A DNA stretch of 64,000 bases, from the NCBI RefSeq assembly GCF_001629705.1, contig NZ_CP015378.1, positions 4,092,001 to 4,156,000 on the forward strand. Direction: 5' to 3'. Position numbers and translations under genes: made by a program. This DNA is from Fictibacillus phosphorivorans (GTDB lineage: Bacteria; Bacillota; Bacilli; Bacillales; Fictibacillaceae). This document shows, piece by piece, positions 44,824 to 60,329 of the stretch; position 1 is the first letter of the stretch; each line of letters begins with the position of its first letter. Under the pieces are notes generated by a model. It saw nothing but the letters and a program-made list of their open reading frames with translations, ran no database searches and was not told where the DNA came from.

Positions 44824-44928
44824 TTCCTCTTATCTTTCAAGCTTTCGCTTGCTGGAATTGGCACAGTCTAAAAATAGTTGTTGCCGAGGCTTCAAAGGGC
44901 CAGTCCCTCCACCTCTCTCGATAAGGAA
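44824..44928 (-). promoter_or_regulatory. SAM-I riboswitch (S-box) for the LLM-metQ operon
   Basis: On the minus strand: TTCCTTATC P1 strand, GAGAGAGGTGGAGGGACTGG, GAAGCCTCGGCAAC, GTGCCAATTCCAGCAAG and closing GATAAGAGGAA. This is the full S-box consensus. SAM binding favours the terminator, so the operon is on when SAM is low. Confidence 0.95.
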
Positions 44929-45080: not shown

Positions 45081-45193
45081 TTCTTATCAAGAGTCAGGGG
45101 AGGAACTGGTCCTACGATCCTGCAGCAACCGCTTTGAAAAAAGAAAGGTGCTAATTCCAGCAGATGTTTTTCTAATGTCTGAAAGATGAGAAA
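45081..45193 (+). promoter_or_regulatory. SAM-I riboswitch (S-box) for the acyl-CoA-dehydrogenase-like gene
   Basis: TTCTTATC P1 strand, AAGAGTCAGGGGAGGAACTGG, CCTGCAGCAACCG, GGTGCTAATTCCAGCAG and GATGAGAA close a second S-box, divergent from the first. Confidence 0.95.
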
Positions 45194-52038: not shown

Positions 52039-52731
52039 ATGATGTTTAAAATTTTGCTTATAGAAGATGATGCGACGCTATTCGGCGAGATCAAGGAGCG
52101 ATTGTCTCAATGGTCGTATGAAGTGTATGGTATTACAGACTTTGGACGAGTGATGCAGGAGTTTACAGAGATTAAACCTGACCTGGTTGTCATCGATATT
52201 CAGCTTCCAAAGTTTGATGGCTTTCATTGGTGCCGAAATATTCGATCGCATTCTAACATACCGATCATCTTTTTATCTTCTCGTGACCATCCGAGCGATA
52301 TGGTCCTATCCATGCAGCTCGGTGCGGACGACTTTGTTCAAAAACCATTTCACTTTGAAGTATTGATCGCTAAGATACATGCGATTCTCAGGCGCGTTTA
52401 TAATTACAATACAGATACCGTTAGTCTCAAAACGTGGTGCGGCGCTCAAATCGATTATGAAAAGAATATCGTAACGAACGAAAAGGGTACCGTTGAACTG
52501 ACTAAGAATGAAGTGTTTATTCTGAAACTCCTGATCGAGCAAAAGAATAAAATTGTAAGTCGTGATAATCTCATCAACAGCTTATGGGATGATAAAAAGT
52601 TTATTAGTGACAATACCCTCACCGTGAATGTGAATCGCTTAAGAAAACGTCTAGAGGAAATCGAACTCGGACAATTTATTGAAACGAAAGTGGGACAAGG
52701 CTATCGTGCAATAGAAGAGGATTCTGTATGA
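52039..52731 (+). CDS. bceR: BceR-like response regulator
   Basis: 230 residues, OmpR/PhoB type. Receiver with IEDDATLF and phosphorylated Asp in LVVIDIQLPKFDG; winged-helix domain with VELTKNEVFILKLL and VGQGYRAIEE. The following kinase and ABC transporter identify it as a BceR-type regulator of peptide-antibiotic defence. Ribosome binding site GTGGTGAT. Overlaps the kinase gene by 4 bp (ATGA). Confidence 0.88.
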   Translation: MMFKILLIEDDATLFGEIKERLSQWSYEVYGITDFGRVMQEFTEIKPDLVVIDIQLPKFDGFHWCRNIRSHSNIPIIFLSSRDHPSDMVLSMQLGADDFVQKPFHFEVLIAKIHAILRRVYNYNTDTVSLKTWCGAQIDYEKNIVTNEKGTVELTKNEVFILKLLIEQKNKIVSRDNLINSLWDDKKFISDNTLTVNVNRLRKRLEEIELGQFIETKVGQGYRAIEEDSV

Positions 52732-53732
52732 TCAAACGCTATTTGATCGAACGCAGCAGCTGGATTTTTTTGTTTTTATTACAACAGCTGATCCTTCTCT
52801 TGATCGCCTATCTAGATCCATCGATTCCCCTTTCTGCTGTTGGCTATATCGTTTTTATTTCACTTATTGTCTTTGTCCTCTTTCTTTTTTATCGGTATCA
52901 GAAGGAAACAGACTTCTTCCAACAGCTTGAGGAAAGAGAAAATGATTTTGATCTTTCTAATATGTCATCACCTTCTACACCTTTTGAAAAAATCGTTAAA
53001 AACAGCATTACCGAACAAACAAAGCATTTAAAACAAACAGCATCCGAAAACCGTATGCTGGTGGAACAAGAAAAGGACGATCTCTTAGCTTGGATTCATG
53101 AGGTAAAAACACCGCTGACGGCGATGCATCTCATGATTCAACGGATGGACGAAACACCTCTTAAAGGAGATCTGACCTACGAATGGCTTCGGATCCACCT
53201 TCTACTCGATCAACAGCTTCATCAAAAAAGAATCCCGTTTATTAAAAACGATCTTTATATGGAAGTAACGGAACTCGAGATGCTGCTTTTTTCCGAGCTG
53301 AAAACGCTGCAGTCATGGTGCATTCAAAAAGGAATCGGCTTTGATTTTGACCTTCAAGTTACTCATGTCTTGAGTGATGCCAAGTGGCTAGCTTTTATCG
53401 TTCGTCAGATCTTAACGAATGCTGTAAAATACAGTCATTCTTCTGAAATTGTCATTAACAGCTATAACATGAACGATAGAAACTATTTAAGAATTCAAGA
53501 CTTTGGTCGAGGAATTGATACAAAGGATATGCCTCGTATCTTTGATAAAGGGTTCACATCAACAACAGACCATCAAGATCAAGCTTCCACCGGCATGGGC
53601 TTATATTTGGCTAAGAAAGCAGCAGATTCCTTACATATCCAACTTTCTATAGATTCGAAGCGGAATGAAGGAACAACCGTAACGCTCGCTTTTCCAAAAA
53701 GAAATGAGTTTGATCAAACGATGGGCATGTGA
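52728..53732 (+). CDS. bceS: BceS-like intramembrane-sensing histidine kinase
   Basis: 334 residues. Two N-terminal helices (about 12-30 and 36-56) with almost no extracellular loop, then the H-box LLAWIHEVKTPLTAMHLM and HATPase motifs (IRQILTNAVKYS, DFGRGID, GMGLYLAKK). BceS-type kinases read flux through the partner transporter rather than drug directly. Confidence 0.88.
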   Translation: MIKRYLIERSSWIFLFLLQQLILLLIAYLDPSIPLSAVGYIVFISLIVFVLFLFYRYQKETDFFQQLEERENDFDLSNMSSPSTPFEKIVKNSITEQTKHLKQTASENRMLVEQEKDDLLAWIHEVKTPLTAMHLMIQRMDETPLKGDLTYEWLRIHLLLDQQLHQKRIPFIKNDLYMEVTELEMLLFSELKTLQSWCIQKGIGFDFDLQVTHVLSDAKWLAFIVRQILTNAVKYSHSSEIVINSYNMNDRNYLRIQDFGRGIDTKDMPRIFDKGFTSTTDHQDQASTGMGLYLAKKAADSLHIQLSIDSKRNEGTTVTLAFPKRNEFDQTMGM

Positions 53733-53758
53733 CGAAAGTGTCACATGCTTTTCTGTTT
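53725..53758 (+). terminator. Hairpin at the end of bceS
   Basis: GCATGTGAC-GAAAGT-GTCACATGC overlaps the stop codon and is followed by TTTTCTGTTTTG: a terminator that separates the regulatory and transporter genes. Confidence 0.65.
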
Positions 53759-53802
53759 TGTTCGTTGAACAGAAGGAAAAGAGCTGAAATGCTTTCTATA
53801 AT
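53751..53802 (+). promoter_or_regulatory. Activated promoter of bceA with upstream inverted repeat
   Basis: TTCTGTT (53751-53757) and AACAGAA (53768-53774) form an inverted repeat directly upstream of a poor -35, with TATAAT at 53797-53802. A weak -35 next to an operator is expected of a BceR-activated promoter. Confidence 0.5.
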
Positions 53803-53829
53803 GAAAGTATCAGAGAGGGGTAATCAATC

Positions 53830-54591
53830 ATGAGTATATTGAAAGCAGTTAAGCTTCATAAGAGCTATGGAAATAAAAATAATAAACAGCATGTCCTTAA
53901 AGGCATCGATCTTTCCGTTGAAAAAGGTGAATTCATCAGTATCATGGGAGCATCTGGATCAGGTAAAACAACATTGTTGAACGTCTTATCCTCCATCGAT
54001 CAAGTGAGTGAAGGAACCATTCATATTAACTCGTTTGAGATGACTGCCATGAAGGAAAAACAGCTGGCAGAGTTCAGAAAGAACCATCTTGGTTTCATCT
54101 TTCAAGATTACAACCTATTAGATACGTTAACGGTTAAAGAAAATATTCTTCTGCCGCTTTCGATAACCAAAACACCGAAAAAAGAAGCGGAAAAGAAATT
54201 TGAAGAAGTGGCGAATGAGCTCGGTATTTCTGAGATAAAAGATAAATATCCGAATGAGATCTCGGGTGGACAAAAGCAGAGAACATCTGCCGCTCGCGCA
54301 TTCATTCATGAGCCGAGTATCATCTTCGCCGATGAACCGACCGGCGCTCTCGATTCCAAGTCTGCGTCTGACCTTTTAAACAAATTAAGCGGTCTTAACG
54401 AGAACAGACAAGCAACCATTCTTATGGTAACGCATGATCCTGTAGCAGCAAGCTATTGCAGCCGCGTTGTGTTTATAAAAGACGGACAGATCTACACGCA
54501 GCTTATGAAAGGAGAGCAAGATCGACAAAGTTTCTTTAAGGATATTATGAAAACGCAAGGTGTTTTAGGTGGTGTTCATCATGAACATTAA
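53830..54591 (+). CDS. bceA: BceA-like ABC transporter ATPase
   Basis: 253 residues: Walker [10 protein letters not shown]-loop FIFQDYN, signature SGGQKQR, Walker [16 protein letters not shown]. MacB/LolD-type ATPase powering the BceB permease. ATG after GAGAGGGGTAA. Confidence 0.92.
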
Positions 54592-56527
54592 TCAGCTCAT
54601 CTTTCGCAACTTAAAGAAAAACTTAAGAAACTATTACCTGTATGTTTTTGCTTTAGTGTTCAGTTCTGCGCTTTATTTTGCATTTGTAACGCTGCAATAT
54701 GATCCTTCTATGGATTCTGTGGAAGGTTCTGTAAAAGGTGAAGCAGCGATTCGAGCTGCCTCCATCTTATTGGTCGTAATCGTATCGGTGTTTCTACTTT
54801 ACGCGAACAACATCTTTATCAAGAGACGCAGCAAAGAAATAGGGCTGTTCCAGTTGATCGGAATGACGAAGGGAAAGATCTTTCGAATTCTTTCAATCGA
54901 AAATTTATTCCTCTACTTCGGTTCCTTATTGATTGGAATCTTTGCTGGATTCTCGTTCTCAAAATTAATGATTCTCGTATTGTTTAAGACGACGGGTGTT
55001 AATTCAGTCGCATCACTACGGTTTTCACCACAAGCCCTTGTACAAACGGTTATCGTTTTCACAGTCATCTATCTGTTGATCATGATCATGAACTATACAT
55101 TCATTAAAAGACAGACCATTCTATCCCTATTCCGTGTGACTTCTTCAACAGAAATCACAGTGAAAAAACTATCTCGCTTCGAGATGGTGATGGGAATCGT
55201 GGGTCTCGTTCTGATCACGACAGGATACATCGTATCTTCCAAACTGTTTGGCGGCGATTTTACAACGATGCCTCAATTATTTGGAGCAATGATCTTTATT
55301 TTGGCTGCCGTTATTTTAGGTACGTATTTCTTTTACAAAGGCTCTGTCAGTTTTCTTTTAAACCTAGTGAGAAAGCGAAAAGGTGGCTATTTGTCCATAA
55401 ACGAAGTGATGTCACTCGCATCCGTCATGTTCCGTATGAAGTCAAACGCACTTCTGCTTATGATCATTACGACTGTTTCAGCGCTTTCAATCGCTTTGTT
55501 GTGCCTTGCATATATCTCGTATTATTCGGCAGAGAAAACGGCTGAAAAAAATGTTCCGCATGACTTTTCAATCATTGATAGAGAATCAGCTGATACGTTC
55601 CAATCCGCTTTAGAGAAAAACAATATTCCGTATTCGGAAAAATCGATTGAAGTGGTCCAGGTGACGGTGAATGCTTCACAGCTTATTGATCGAAGCTTAG
55701 AAGAACTCGTGATCGATCCAAAAGCGATGCCACTTCCTTTAATCAGTGAAAAGTCAGTATCCGGCATGGATGTTTCACGGGATGAAGTGGTCTTTACCGG
55801 CTATGACGACCTGCTTCAAAAGTTTATGCCATTAAAGAGCTCTGGTTCTATTAAGATCAAAGGAAAGACAGAAACGCTCACTCAACGTTATGTAGGCTTA
55901 GAAGATATTTATCCCGTATCCTGGTATTTCACAGCTGGAGGCGTTCCTACAGCGATCGTTGATGATGCCATTTTTACAAAGATGCAAAAAGATATCGATC
56001 CTAAGGTACAAAAGGAATCCAGCCTCTATATTGGGGTTGACATAAAAAATAAAGAACAACTTGAAGAGGCAGATAAACTGTTTAAATCAACCGAAACGTA
56101 TAAAAAGCTATACAACGAATCACGTCATGAGATCAGCACGAATCAGAAGAAAAACATGGGACTCATAATGTTTATCGTAGGTTTCCTAGGACTAACTTTC
56201 CTCGTTACCTCAGGGTGTATCCTCTACTTCAAACAGATGGACGAGGGTGAAAGTGAAAAGCCGAACTATATGATTCTGCGAAAACTAGGTTACACGCAAA
56301 GTGACCTGTTAAAGGGTATTCAGTATAAGCAGCTCTTTAACTTTGGAATTCCACTAGTGGTCGGCTTGCTTCATAGCTATTTCGCCGTACAATCCGGTTG
56401 GTTCCTGTTCGGAGCTGAACTTTGGACACCAATGATCATCGTTATGGTCATGTATACGATCCTCTATTCGATCTTTGGTGTGTTATCTGTTCTTTATTAT
56501 AAGAAAGTGGTTAGAGAAGCACTGTAG
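54581..56527 (+). CDS. bceB: BceB-like ABC transporter permease
   Basis: 648 residues, ten membrane segments with a large extracellular domain (about residues 310-520) between helices 7 and 8, the Bce hallmark that binds the target peptide-lipid complex. FtsX-type segments recur at both ends ([34 protein letters not shown]). The ATG at 54581 lies within the last codons of bceA. Confidence 0.9.
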
Positions 56528-56535
56528 ATACACTC

Positions 56536-56572
56536 AAAAACGCTCCACCTAAAAATCCGGAGGAGCGTTTTT
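56536..56572. terminator. Bidirectional terminator between bceB and the radical SAM gene
   Basis: AAAAACGCTCC and GGAGCGTTTTT arms. The minus-strand gene ends inside it: its last codons lie in the right arm. Confidence 0.85.
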
Positions 56573-57181
56573 GACTTTCTTAAAATGATTTTGACTGAAA
56601 AGATCAGAAAGTGTATGTTGAGTAGCCATACCATTAATTGAAACCACACCATCACTACCAATACGTATCTCAACTTTATTTTGAATGGATTCCAACTCGT
56701 TCTCTATATGTTTATACACTTTCGTTAAAAAATGATACCGCTGATTCGAAGAACCCACCCAAGGACGTGTTAAGTCTAACTTGTCTTTAATAAAAGGACC
56801 GTCAATCAGTAAATCTGCTGCATTAAGAAGATTCTGTGCTTCTTTTCGTTCTTTAAGATTCTCATAAAGGTATCCAGAAAACACCATTACGGTTAATCCA
56901 ATCTCCTTAACCATGACAGCAAGTTCTCCTAAAGGTTCTGCTTGGTCAAACGGTTCTCCACCAAGTATTGTGATACCTTCTATCCTGTTATCCTGTTTAC
57001 TTCTTTTTATTTCCTCAAAGAGATCAATAACGCTTACTATCTTTCCGTTTTCTTTTGACCATGTCCATGGAACGCCACATCCTTCACAACGAATGGAGCA
57101 CCCTTGTACCCATAGACAAAATCGTTTACCTGGACCTTCAACGGTTGTAACTGGCAAAAATCGATGTATAGTAAGTTCCAT
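56549..57181 (-). CDS. Radical SAM (4Fe-4S single-cluster) enzyme of the AAA operon
   Basis: 210 residues. The cluster motif CSIRCEGC (CxxxCxxC) lies in CLWVQGCSIRCEGCGVPWTW, followed by the glycine-rich SAM strand GITILGGEPFDQAEPL. It looks like a small activating-enzyme type (NrdG/PflA-like) radical SAM protein, but no ribonucleotide reductase or glycyl-radical partner is present. It overlaps the preceding gene by one base (TGATG) and is last in the operon. Target unknown; a protein substrate within the cluster is an inference. Confidence 0.8.
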   Translation of the reverse strand: MELTIHRFLPVTTVEGPGKRFCLWVQGCSIRCEGCGVPWTWSKENGKIVSVIDLFEEIKRSKQDNRIEGITILGGEPFDQAEPLGELAVMVKEIGLTVMVFSGYLYENLKERKEAQNLLNAADLLIDGPFIKDKLDLTRPWVGSSNQRYHFLTKVYKHIENELESIQNKVEIRIGSDGVVSINGMATQHTLSDLFSQNHFKKVKNAPPDF

Positions 57182-57906
57182 CAGAAATCGATGACTCTTC
57201 CTTCCATTTTTTTGGCTGATACTACCACAGGTTCTTTCTCTGGAAACAAGAGATATGGTCTTATTTTTTCAGCCAAATGTGGTTTAACAGAAAGTACCTC
57301 AACAAAGTGATTAAAAGATTGAAACCCATTTTCCTGACTTCGAGTAGAAATGATCTTCTTAGCGAACAAACCTCCAATGCCTGGGACTTTCGCTAACTCC
57401 TCCTCAGTTGTTTCGTTGATCATAACTTGTTCTACCCTCATTTCTTTCTCTTCTTTAAATTTTATTTGTTCATCTACAGTTTTAGATGGTAAAACAGGTT
57501 GCTTCTCTATTACCGAAGCAGCACCATACTCTCTAGCGATTGTCTTTTTCAAATAATCTATTTCTTTTTCTTTATACCCAGAAGAAAGTTTGGCATCAAG
57601 TCTTAGCAAATATTCAGGACGTATTTTAATTACATGAAGGATAGAAACAATATACCCAATTATATAACTCATAGTTCCAACATCACTTAGCCAAGTATCA
57701 CTTAAAACCGTATCAGCAGTAATCATCATCAATATAAATGGGATTGAATACAGAATCCCTGCTACAAACCATTTTCTTTGTTTTACTTTATAAGAAACAT
57801 AAAAGAATGAAATATAATTAAAAAAACCAAACGTAAGAAAAACCCAAAGCATCCATATTGAATTTTTCATCTCCCAAAACTTTCCTCTGTCCGTAACTGA
57901 AGCCAT
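57181..57906 (-). CDS. Membrane protein with C-terminal helix-hairpin-helix
   Basis: 241 residues. Four hydrophobic segments in the first ~95 residues, a Lys/Glu-rich linker, then a ComEA-like HhH domain (INETTEEELAKVPGIGGLFAKKII, ~163-186) with a second hairpin-like part. It ends GRVIDF. The HhH may bind DNA or a protein partner at the membrane. 4 bp from the DUF2997 gene and overlapping the radical SAM gene. ATG after AGGGAGAC. Confidence 0.75.
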   Translation of the reverse strand: MASVTDRGKFWEMKNSIWMLWVFLTFGFFNYISFFYVSYKVKQRKWFVAGILYSIPFILMMITADTVLSDTWLSDVGTMSYIIGYIVSILHVIKIRPEYLLRLDAKLSSGYKEKEIDYLKKTIAREYGAASVIEKQPVLPSKTVDEQIKFKEEKEMRVEQVMINETTEEELAKVPGIGGLFAKKIISTRSQENGFQSFNHFVEVLSVKPHLAEKIRPYLLFPEKEPVVVSAKKMEGRVIDF

Positions 57907-57910
57907 TTTA

Positions 57911-58117
57911 TTAGTCTCCCTTCACTGTTTGTTGCTGTTCTTGGAAAGTTTGTATTTCTGTTTCGTGGTATTCTTCCGTAAAAGTTGAATCGACCGTTTC
58001 TGCATCAAGCAATTCTTCTAACATTTTTATATATGACAAACAGGAATTCCCTTTAATACCCATTGTTTCTGCGTAAAATTTACCGTCTTCTGCTATACGA
58101 ATCTGAATCTTCTTCAT
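57911..58117 (-). CDS. DUF2997 family protein
   Basis: 68 residues with the family core KIQIRIAEDGKFYAETMGIKGNSC then a Leu/Glu helix and an acidic Gln-rich tail. DUF2997 genes are known next to DUF1257 (Ycf35) genes in cyanobacteria and firmicutes. Function unknown. It overlaps the DUF1257-like gene by 4 bp. Confidence 0.8.
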   Translation of the reverse strand: MKKIQIRIAEDGKFYAETMGIKGNSCLSYIKMLEELLDAETVDSTFTEEYHETEIQTFQEQQQTVKGD

Positions 58118-58575
58118 CTTTCACCACCTACATTCGCGACATTAAAGGTTAATAGAATTGAACGATCTTTCTGTATTTCTTCAGATTCAAGTATCAGTCC
58201 TTTATCTTTCGCTTTTATCAGGAGCGCTTTATACGTTTCTTGTTGAATTAAATATTTATACTCGGTATGTAAATTTTCTATAAACTCTATAGCGTCATTT
58301 GCATCTACACTTTCATCAAAAACAGCTTCAAAGATCCCTTGCTCGTCTTGTTGGAAATAAATTTTAATATCTCCTATTTCTGTTTCATAGTTTTGCAGAG
58401 TAAGTTCATTAACCTTGCATCCATATTGCTCAATGGCTCTTTGTAATAAGTGATGTCGTTTCATTACTGTTTTTATCGTATACGTTTTTTCCTTAAATTT
58501 GTGTTTTTCAATCATAGAGCCCACAGATTGTGCAACAGCGATGCCAACAGGAATTAGTACTAATTCGATACTCAT
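58114..58575 (-). CDS. DUF1257/Ycf35-like protein
   Basis: 153 residues. Alternating strands and helices (YTIKTVMKRHHLLQRAIEQYG, GDIKIYFQQDEQGIFEAVFD) and a C-terminal strand. Identification rests on the length, pattern and place between a Ycf46-like ATPase and DUF2997; the sequence alone is a weaker match. The ATG at 58575 follows AAAGGGTG; a GTG three codons upstream is less well placed. Confidence 0.6.
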   Translation of the reverse strand: MSIELVLIPVGIAVAQSVGSMIEKHKFKEKTYTIKTVMKRHHLLQRAIEQYGCKVNELTLQNYETEIGDIKIYFQQDEQGIFEAVFDESVDANDAIEFIENLHTEYKYLIQQETYKALLIKAKDKGLILESEEIQKDRSILLTFNVANVGGER

Positions 58576-58601
58576 ATCTATCACCCTTTCTTATTCATAT
58601 C

Positions 58602-60242
58602 TTAGAAATCAATTGTACGTCCGCCTCGAGACGCTTTGATGTCAAACTCAGGGTCTGAATCCGCATTTTCAAAATACTCTTTTCGATCTTCACGAGGTGT
58701 TGCCGTTACTGCTCTTACATTTGCCCATTCACGGACCTTTTTGATCTGTTCTGCTTGAGTAACAGATAACGGAATGAATTGCTTACACACTTTTTCGAAA
58801 TCACTGAGTCTCACACTTCGATCCTCGTAATAAGCTTCAAATAATCCATTAATCACGACCTGTTCAATTTCAGCACCCACAAATCCTTCCGTCAGTTCTG
58901 CCAAATATTCTAAGTTATAATCAGAGATATCGAATTCTCCTATAACTTCCTGTGCCTTTAATCTTTTCTTTAAATGGACTCTAAAAATATCAATCCGTTC
59001 CCGGTGAGTTGGCAGATCCACAAAAAAGATTTCATCAAACCTTCCTTTGCGCAACATTTCTGGAGGAAGACTGGAAATATTATTTGCTGTGGCAATAACA
59101 AAAACTGGCTTTTCTTTTTCTTGCATCCAAGTTAAGAACTGCCCAAAAATTCGGGAGCTTGTCCCGCCGTCTCCGGTAGAGTTTATCCCGCTAAAGCCTT
59201 TTTCAATCTCATCGATCCAGAGTATAGAGGGGGCTATGGCTTCTGCAGTTTGAATTGCTTTTCTCATGTTCTCTTCACTGCTTCCTACAATGCCGCTAAA
59301 TATTTTCCCTATATCCAGCCTCAATAATGGCAGCTGCCACATTTCACTAATTGATTTACTTATTAAGCTCTTTCCACAACCAGGCACCCCTGTAATGAGC
59401 ACCCCTTTTGGAGAAGGCAATCCATATAGTTGAGCCGATTCCAGCCAGGACTTATTTCTTTTTCGAAGCCACCTTTTTAAATTTTCCAATCCACCGATGT
59501 CTTCCATGTTCAATTCATTATTTACAAACTCTAAAATACCCGTTTTTTTAATGATTTGTTCTTTTTCTTCTAATATCACTTCTACATCATCGACAGATAA
59601 TTTCCCATCTTCCACCATAGCACGTGCAAAAGCGTTTTCCGCTTCTGATAATGTTAATCCTAGTGCTGCTTTAACCAGCTTTTCAATTTCTTCATCAGAC
59701 ATATTAATTTCAATACGACCTCTTTGCTTATTAACTGCAATCATCTCTTCTAAACTATTCTTAATCTCTTTAAACGTTGGCAGATTGAAGTCAAAGATGG
59801 TAATATCCTTTTCCAGCTCAAGAGGAAGTTTTAAAATCGGGGATAAAAAAACGACGTTCTTTGGGTTTTGACTTTGTTTAAGATTGGATAATAGGTCTCT
59901 CAATTTACGAATGATTTGATAATCAGGAAGCTGGCCTTGATTACCAAAATAAACATGAAAATCATGTAAAATAAAAATAGCAGGGTCTTGGAACTTTTCG
60001 ATGTATTCCAAAGCTCTTAACGGAGATTTAGTATCTGTAATACTCAAATCATCTCCTGATATGCCATTGGTCACTTTCCAAGTAATTAATTTTCTTGGTG
60101 TTTTGATTAATTCATGATTTGAAGCAATAGAGCGTATGAATTCAAGTGCCCTATCCTCTTCCCAAGTAGACAAGTAAAGGAAAGGAAAGCGTGCTTTAAA
60201 AAGATCAGCCATTAGTTTTTTTCTATTCAAATTTTTATCCAT
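58602..60242 (-). CDS. Ycf46-like AAA ATPase
   Basis: 546 residues. N-terminal half (to ~235) looks like a degenerate AAA domain: no Walker A, but a Walker-B-like AIFILHDFH strand. The C-terminal AAA domain has Walker A GVPGCGKS (285-292), Walker B LWIDEIE (~341-347), sensor ATANN and Arg finger in RKGRFDE (~401). It ends GRTIDF. The ATG at 60242 follows GAGGTGG; a GTG three codons upstream is poorer. First of five closely packed genes. Ycf46 family; likely a remodelling ATPase. Confidence 0.85.
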
Positions 60243-60299
60243 CGTAGCCACCTCAGTATTATTCAGTTATCTATCTATAAATGCTTACTAATATTTTAC

Positions 60300-60329
60300 A
60301 TTATAGTCCTATTAAATGGGACATGTTTA
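60300..60329 (-). promoter_or_regulatory. Promoter of the AAA operon with a palindrome filling its spacer
   Basis: TATAAT (60305-60300) is the -10; TAAACA (60329-60324) or the overlapping hexamer is a poor -35. The spacer is GTCC-n-ATT-n-AAT-n-GGAC (60306-60322), a 17-bp palindrome that begins next to the -10. A repressor there would block polymerase. Confidence 0.55.

Follow-up and report, generated by a model that had tools for sequence, protein, structure and literature searches.

Few C-terminal address tags are known to us that are short, common to unrelated proteins and read by one machine, the tripeptide of the cytosolic iron-sulfur (Fe-S) assembly (CIA) pathway being a recent eukaryotic example. 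Radical S-adenosylmethionine (SAM) maturases of the ribosomally synthesized and post-translationally modified peptide (RiPP) type are encoded beside substrates that have a conserved short part and a variable remainder. This report concerns a five-gene operon of Fictibacillus phosphorivorans, found in a 64,000-nucleotide stretch of its genome (contig NZ_CP015378.1, positions 4,092,001 to 4,156,000), here called the window. The AAA ATPase and the helix-hairpin-helix (HhH) membrane protein of this operon end in a common tag, R-x-[ILV]-[DE]-hydrophobic-COOH. The other three genes encode a DUF1257-like protein, a DUF2997 protein and a small radical SAM protein.

Described systems

The CIA pathway is eukaryotic, as stated in the excerpted report (PMC10623007). 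Its clients, Fe-S proteins or adaptors, carry a targeting complex recognition (TCR) tripeptide, [LIM]-[DES]-[WF]-COOH, that is read by Cia1/Cia2/Met18 according to excerpts of two reports (PMC10623007, PMC13082141). The tag of the present operon is likewise a short C-terminal hydrophobic-acidic-hydrophobic motif with a terminal aromatic residue, carried by unrelated proteins, and it too would be read by one machine; the I-D-F ending of the window AAA and HhH proteins fits the TCR consensus. Unlike the CIA tripeptide, the tag belongs to a bacterial system (plus one archaeal record), has a nearly invariant Arg at position -5 and may also end in L, I, V or Y, and its clients do not resemble Fe-S proteins. 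No CIA proteins take part, though no search aimed at CIA genes was made. The Leu1 CIA tag fails on a three-residue extension (PMC10623007, excerpt); a few of the tags described here carry one or two extra residues.

The Ycf46/Ycf35(DUF1257)/DUF2997 set of cyanobacteria and plastids is built of the same AAA, DUF1257 and DUF2997 families as the operon. Ycf46 appears, in the excerpt of one report, as a stress-operon gene of unknown function with a carbon-use phenotype (PMC7496141), and in the excerpt of a red-algal survey ycf35 and ycf46 are among the ycf genes classed as a conserved hypothetical family (PMC5940233). Unlike the operon, the cyanobacterial core loci examined have neither HhH clients nor an adjacent radical SAM gene, and their AAA proteins lie across a 100/99 branch of the AAA tree.

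Two kinds of radical SAM enzyme invite comparison. Like NrdG and PflA, the operon enzyme belongs to the Fer4_12 fold family, is about 200 amino acids (aa) long, has a CX3CX2C motif and is NrdG-like in sequence; it scores below the curated cut-offs, however, and its host genome has no glycyl-radical client. As in RiPP maturation, a modifying-type enzyme is encoded next to potential substrates that combine a short conserved part with a variable rest, but it has no SPASM-type cysteines, the clients are full-size membrane or multidomain proteins, and an AAA plus DUF1257/DUF2997 core is present.

No open-licence PubMed Central (PMC) paper was found that joins a radical SAM enzyme with Ycf46, nor was this system found in the excerpted open-licence PMC literature on DUF1257/DUF2997. 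This suggests that the system itself, rather than its chemistry, is new within that literature.

A common C-terminal tag

The five genes lie on the minus strand and are separated by 26, -4, 4 and -1 bp, in place, strand and spacing exactly as stated by the first-pass annotation, a note made from the letters of the window. They and their two tags are as follows.

58602..60242, minus strand: AAA ATPase of the Ycf46 kind, 546 aa, with an alternative GTG start at 60251
58605..58622, minus strand: AAA C-terminal tag G-R-T-I-D-F, directly before the stop codon
58114..58575, minus strand: DUF1257-like (Ycf35-like) protein, 153 aa
57911..58117, minus strand: DUF2997 protein, 68 aa, with a 4-bp overlap with the preceding gene
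57181..57906, minus strand: HhH membrane protein, 241 aa
57184..57201, minus strand: HhH C-terminal tag G-R-V-I-D-F, right before a stop codon that overlaps the start of the radical SAM gene
56549..57181, minus strand: small radical SAM protein, Fer4_12/NrdG-like, 210 aa

The AAA protein ends ...RGGRTIDF and the HhH protein ends ...KKMEGRVIDF. The first-pass annotation had pointed to the C-terminal peptides of the operon proteins, which was well aimed, as two of them carry one tag. The shared pentapeptide was not among its statements. An alignment of the window HhH protein and seven relatives (identities as low as 31%) has invariant G, R and D in the tail and an unconserved linker before it.

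The tag was counted in 88 loci, 80 of which came from an AAA alignment search and 8 from the genus and order of the host; since the 80 are the best of 562 relatives, the loci are not a random sample. The motif counted in complete frames was R-x-[ILVM]-[DE]-[FYWLIVM] at the C-terminus. Within the 46 of the 88 loci that have both radical SAM and HhH genes, it is carried by 59 of the 60 complete frames of the HhH family and by 40 of the 46 complete frames of AAA, as against none of 43 DUF2997, none of 45 radical SAM and none of 45 DUF1257-like frames. Among the other frames of at least 60 aa, read in six frames over all 88 loci, only 3 of 3614 bear the tag, and all three are operon proteins missed by the profiles. 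The single HhH exception (L080) has one residue beyond the tag. Three of the AAA exceptions either stop within the tag near a contig end (L089) or carry two extra residues (L100) or one (L102).

Of the 65 client-type proteins, which form 48 clusters at 50% identity, 64 have R at -5 (4.21 bits) and 63 have D at -2 (4.09 bits). The information falls to 0.42-0.87 bits at positions -7 to -12 and at the sampled positions -15, -20, -25 and -30. Across the family the residue at -3 may be V and the last residue may be L, I, V or Y. The residue preceding the Arg is G in 40 of the 65 clients and E in 18. The tag slightly resembles the PFL glycyl loop; a glycyl radical on the tag Gly was considered and rejected on this G/E distribution.

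Thirty-three further loci (L155-L171, L199-L214) served as an independent check. Seven of their 2468 frames of at least 60 aa are tagged, and all seven are AAA or client proteins. The AAA and client tails are RRIDF and RTLDL on one actinobacterial plasmid (L211) and RQIDF and RRLDL on another (L212). On a third (L155) the client is tagged, RRLEF, and the AAA ends RTFEF, with Phe at -3, outside the strict motif. The remaining tagged AAA proteins are those of L161 (RKLEM) and L204 (RQLDL).

At the level of whole genomes, 15 of them, nine with the operon and six without, were scanned for the strict DNA form G-[RS]-x-[ILV]-D-[FY]-stop; in frames of at least 50 aa that truly close with a stop codon it was found in operon genes only. 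Seven operon-bearing genomes have two such matches each and G063 has three; G106, where the HhH tail is written in codons that the pattern misses, has one. The wider form R-x-[ILV]-[DE]-[FY]-stop has 27 matches in the host genome, and the only frames of at least 50 aa among them are the two operon genes; within this pattern, then, the host has no further clients in trans among frames of that length. Clients in trans may still exist with forms outside the pattern, which covers neither ATG, CTG, GTG or TTR codons at -3 nor a final L, I, V, M or W.

The HhH protein and other clients

The HhH protein matches HHH_3 (PF12836, 8.8e-13) at residues 159-219. Its order is three hydrophobic stretches, the HHH_3 domain, a variable linker and the C-terminal tag; judged from the loop charges, the HhH domain and the tail are probably cytoplasmic. 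The window protein has no cysteines and so does not itself belong among the usual Fe-S proteins. The Fe-S-linked process at the membrane offered by the first-pass annotation stays conjectural.

Tagged proteins span several families, and the commonest client is of the membrane plus HhH type. Others include a GYF_2 plus HhH protein (L078, and L073 by eye), repeated HhH-like units in L108 (by eye) and, both in L098, a membrane protein with an Mrr_cat nuclease domain and a TPR protein whose end is HhH-like. Membrane domains without HhH are tagged too (L112, a short form, and L118, by eye). One locus (L091) encodes seven tagged HhH-family proteins.

A Paenibacillus polymyxa plasmid (L162) encodes an AAA, a DUF1257, a DUF2997 and a radical SAM protein, followed by two proteins with a hydrophobic N-terminus. 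These two proteins end SRVIHF and KRVIRL, a variant tail without the acidic residue. On a Treponema succinifaciens plasmid (L161), a radical SAM gene and a Ycf46-like AAA gene (RKLEM) lie inside a contractile-injection gene cluster.

The five genes as a unit

All five families occur together in 43 of the 88 loci, counting open frames. They are thus a true recurring set, as had been proposed, and not a chance neighbourhood. A separate "core" clade has the AAA, DUF1257 and DUF2997 families but neither HhH nor radical SAM. For 38 loci every one of the five families has a complete, start-called member, and in these the gene distance matrices agree pairwise (Mantel test, Spearman 0.55-0.82, with none of 200 permutations as high); because it is made on related sequences, this test shows a common history, not function.

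A tree of the 76 AAA proteins that could be start-called is split by a 100/99 branch into 47 system and 29 core AAA proteins. Radical SAM and HhH were found for 42 of the 47 system-side rows. The other five are two loci where the contig ends (L075, L084), one with other clients (L098), one reduced (L118) and L114. The system side takes in Bacillota, Actinomycetota, Bacteroidota, Fusobacteriota, Armatimonadota, Melainabacteria, one cyanobacterial row (L114) and one archaeal record, Methanosphaera; several rows are metagenome bins.

The distribution is patchy. Of the 150 genomes of the order, 9 have a full-length HhH homologue, as have 2 of the 5 listed for the genus; DUF2997 occurs in 8 of 398 genomes of the phylum (the host and seven others). 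The DUF2997 loci of those seven (L165-L171) were examined and set aside as not this system, their stretches having no radical SAM, no HhH and no tagged frame of at least 60 aa. Copies of the system are carried on conjugative plasmids, and the operon is a mobile, horizontally moving bacterial system. The 88-locus counts do not include these DUF2997 loci, the plasmid loci (L155-L163, L209-L214), a phage locus (L164) or the radical SAM loci L199-L208.

Five plasmids (L156-L160, from Polaromonas, Photobacterium, Acinetobacter, Leisingera and Moellerella) carry a recurring five-gene cluster with a radical SAM protein 39-43% identical to that of the window. The cluster consists of a large AAA-domain protein, a PIN-domain protein, a 367-381 aa protein, a 612-622 aa AAA ATPase and the radical SAM protein, and has no tagged frames of at least 60 aa. 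It is perhaps a mobile or conflict system in its own right.

The radical SAM protein

The radical SAM protein matches Fer4_12 (PF13353, 1.9e-34) and Radical_SAM (PF04055, 5.3e-9). Its cluster motif is placed as follows.

57077..57100, minus strand: CX3CX2C cluster motif, CSIRCEGC, residues 28-35 of the radical SAM protein

The three cysteines of the motif are invariant in 42 aligned radical SAM proteins. The window protein has only four cysteines (22, 28, 32 and 35), and none of the SPASM/twitch auxiliary-cluster type.

Among NCBIfam models the best match is NrdG (TIGR02491), at 109.6 bits and below the curated 126.1; the PflA model (TIGR02493) gives 75.7 bits against a curated 231.75. By sequence, the nearest solved structure is the PFL-activating enzyme. 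NRDD/NrdD (PF13597) was found in none of nine operon-bearing genomes; a control search of 14 known genomes detected it in 6. A Gly_radical protein (PF01228) was found in three of the nine (G149, G068, G063) and not in the host or the other five. The host having neither NRDD nor Gly_radical, the radical SAM protein is not the activase for a known client in this genome. In the genome of L080 a separate NrdG-like gene adjoins that of a 706-aa protein, probably NrdD, and scores 142.9 bits as against 278.3 for the system enzyme.

The core proteins

The AAA protein matches PF00004 (2.8e-30) and has a Walker A motif, GVPGCGKS, at residue 285 and a Walker B-like ILWIDE at 340. It is 43-47% identical (best segment) to the listed core cyanobacterial AAA proteins, with kinship over nearly the whole length; its assignment to Ycf46 is by this kinship to AAA proteins encoded beside Ycf35, not by a curated Ycf46 model. 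Its score against IteA of the IetAS defence system (NF042959) is 57.1 bits, far under the curated cut-off of 510. Searches of the five window proteins with PADLOC gave weak, partial matches to IetA (3e-20, AAA domain only), pVip (8e-7) and ZorE (1e-3, DUF2997).

The window DUF1257-like protein has no Pfam match of its own, PF06868 included. A profile-profile comparison (hhalign) of its family with cyanobacterial Ycf35/DUF1257 gave a probability of 96.3% and an E-value of 1.8e-9; of the 42 family members, 5 match PF06868 at E <= 0.01, the best at 6e-4. As judged from these comparisons, the label "DUF1257-like" holds by remote homology only. The predicted structure has a mean confidence (pLDDT) of 85.4, and a fold search with it returned KA1-like domains at middling Z, which gave no function. 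In six loci from Gastranaerophilales and their kin (L079, L081-L083, L085, L086) the DUF1257-like frame is far longer, about 420 aa, with an extra N-terminal part.

The DUF2997 protein matches PF11211 at 1.2e-13 and 51.1 bits, above the gathering score of 24.1. Its model is beta-beta-alpha, and a fold search with it found no PDB match at E < 0.5. One of its cysteines is invariant in 52 aligned members.

58040..58042, minus strand: codon of DUF2997 Cys26, the invariant cysteine

The core in cyanobacteria, plasmids and Anaerolineales

Of the 15 cyanobacterial loci where the AAA gene adjoins Ycf35, 14 encode an AAA protein that ends R-[ML]-E-F. On a Pseudanabaena galeata plasmid (L213), a single gene run encodes GrpE, Hsp70, DUF1257, DUF2997 and AAA; the presence of Hsp70 and GrpE beside the core fits a remodelling role. 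Another plasmid stretch has AAA, DUF1257 and DUF2997 with no Hsp70/GrpE, radical SAM or RVIHF/RVIRL-type proteins in view. With the AAA kinship, the Ycf35 profile match and these plasmid core loci, the link drawn in the first-pass annotation to the cyanobacterial ATPase/DUF1257/DUF2997 set is real.

In two Anaerolineales loci (L124, L128), the AAA and an adjoining multipass membrane protein end alike, GLRQMEIN with GLIKLELD and GLRQMELG with GLIQLEID, and no radical SAM gene was found in the locus. A related radical SAM gene is present elsewhere in the L128 genome and none in that of L124.

Eleven cyanobacterial genomes were tested for a related radical SAM enzyme. Seven have a stand-alone one elsewhere, scoring 165-173 bits as against 250-295 for five system enzymes. 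These stand-alone proteins (L199-L203, L206, L207) are 203-244 aa long, and in two cases (L199, L201) they adjoin another protein with a CX3CX2C stretch. The stand-alone enzyme is a possible partner of Ycf46/Ycf35.

A proposed tag-addressed system and its alternatives

The reading we propose is a tag-addressed protein-handling system, in which the core recognises tagged proteins and the radical SAM enzyme modifies them; we place about equal weight for and against it. The tag on the AAA ATPase, on the membrane/HhH protein or proteins and on occasional other operon proteins would serve as a recognition signal. The AAA/DUF1257/DUF2997 core (the Ycf46/Ycf35 module) would recognise it and remodel or present the tagged proteins, and the small radical SAM enzyme, partnered with the core rather than with a glycyl-radical enzyme, would then modify the presented proteins, on the tag or elsewhere. 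Candidate binders of the tag are DUF1257, DUF2997 with its invariant Cys, the radical SAM protein and the AAA itself. Recognition by a machine is suggested by the same tail on unrelated proteins, and modification of the tagged proteins may be supposed from the gene partnership alone. The proposal of the first-pass annotation, that an AAA-driven radical SAM modification takes place at the membrane, likewise stays conjectural.

A broader version is that a widespread and so far unrecognised prokaryotic machine reads the pentapeptide and uses radical SAM chemistry to modify any bearer, its own ATPase included, with Ycf46/Ycf35 as the ancestral core and the stand-alone cyanobacterial radical SAM enzyme as a possible partner in trans. 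We hold this only tentatively, and would not call it probable.

Several observations weigh against the proposed system. The tail extends beyond the loci with radical SAM and HhH, to the 14 cyanobacterial AAA proteins with R-[ML]-E-F and to three core-clade AAA proteins that fit the strict motif (L116, L117, L127). In 4 of the 11 cyanobacterial genomes, drafts among them, there is no close radical SAM enzyme and the AAA tail is kept, which favours docking over tail modification. Radical SAM and AAA were found paired with no tagged client in L161 and L114, and also in L204, where the contig ends, and the AAA proteins of L105, L111 and L115 have no tag motif. Some tags have Glu in place of Asp and the final residue differs between tags, so that neither position has the look of a single chemical target, and the tags with one or two extra residues (the L080 client, the L100 and L102 AAA proteins) mean that the position of the free carboxylate may not be strict. 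Finally, the fold searches with the DUF1257-like and DUF2997 models gave no informative function.

The strongest rival is an assembly hub without modification of the tagged proteins. Tails of p97 and of the proteasomal ATPases (HbYX) dock to partner proteins, and here the tail would dock the AAA ring and its membrane partners to one receptor (DUF1257, DUF2997 or an AAA pocket), while the radical SAM enzyme would act elsewhere, for example on the invariant Cys of DUF2997 or on a small molecule. A hub would accommodate the tails of the many core AAA proteins with no HhH clients in the locus and of the four cyanobacterial genomes just mentioned, as well as the matched AAA and membrane protein tails of L124 and L128, and the Cys conserved in all 52 DUF2997 members would suit it as a target. 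It gives no account, however, of why the radical SAM gene occurs with tagged HhH clients and shares their gene history, and we consider it possible but on the doubtful side.

A conflict system, directed against phages or plasmids, is compatible with tag-addressed handling. In such a system, tagged membrane effectors would be armed or restrained by the radical SAM and AAA proteins. The patchy distribution, the carriage on plasmids, the duplication of clients, the tagged Mrr_cat protein and the related radical SAM gene in a helicase-like/PIN/AAA cluster on Pseudomonadota plasmids are what it would lead one to expect. The PADLOC matches are weak and partial, however, and the neighbours in the window look like ordinary metabolic and ABC-transporter genes, which leaves this explanation unlikely.

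The tag could instead be the substrate, as in RiPP maturation, with the radical SAM enzyme altering Arg -5, Asp -2 or the backbone of the pentapeptide. This would agree with the tag being the only visible sequence that the client types all share, the Mrr_cat and TPR proteins of L098 for instance, and with the Arg in 64 of 65 clients. The Arg is nevertheless kept in the AAA of cyanobacterial genomes where no close radical SAM enzyme was found, the Asp may be Glu, the P. polymyxa plasmid tails RVIHF and RVIRL have no acidic residue at all, and the enzyme has no auxiliary-cluster cysteines of the SPASM kind. We judge it decidedly unlikely.

That the shared tail is an artefact, of homology within one family, of a Shine-Dalgarno site for the next gene or of profile selection, is very improbable. 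The tail codons of the window HhH gene do sit right before the radical SAM start and contain AAGGAAGAG. A Shine-Dalgarno origin was nonetheless rejected, as the tag is present in 33 of 33 clients whose stop does not adjoin a radical SAM gene and its Arg is coded by CGN in 22 and AGN in 39. Selection by profiles was rejected as well, as profiles cut by their last 25 or 40 columns give equal counts (59 of 60 HhH matches over all loci, 40 of 46 AAA). One-family homology is opposed by the tag on unrelated proteins and by the stand-alone membrane-domain relatives in L018, L019 and L020, which end without it.

Least credible of all is an ordinary NrdG or PflA activase located here by chance, for although NrdG is its best NCBIfam match, the PFL-activating enzyme its nearest structure and Gly_radical present in three operon-bearing genomes, the score lies under the NrdG cut-off, NRDD is in none of the nine genomes and Gly_radical in neither the host nor five others, its gene distances track those of the operon, and the NrdG-like gene of the L080 genome is distinct from the system enzyme, in keeping with the earlier view of it as an enzyme with no standard client nearby.

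Transcription signals and neighbouring genes

Two candidate transcription signals flank the operon.

60300..60329, minus strand: sigma-70-like promoter match upstream of the operon, 10 of 12 positions, weak evidence
56536..56572, strand not assigned: terminator-like inverted repeat over the 3' end of the radical SAM gene, loop about 15, seen by eye

The operon had been described as having one promoter and one terminator. Candidates exist for both, but sigma-70-like sites are no commoner in the region than chance (14 found, 16.8 expected), which makes the single-promoter claim weak, and the inverted repeat was seen by eye only and is absent from the scanner's terminator list.

The neighbours of the operon in the window resemble ordinary metabolic and ABC-transporter genes. 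Convergent with it, at 52728-56527 on the plus strand, are genes for a sensor kinase, an ABC ATPase and a 652-aa permease, identified by eye, which look like a peptide-sensing/export module. The window also contains two divergent SAM riboswitches, at 44827-44927 on the minus strand (91.4 bits) and at 45081-45192 on the plus strand (88.0 bits).

Significance

If the proposed system is correct, protein substrates would be selected in a new way, by a bacterial tag coupled to a radical SAM enzyme. The tag, being a signal of five residues, would be easy to test and to transplant. The system would also provide the first mechanistic handle on Ycf46, Ycf35 and DUF2997.

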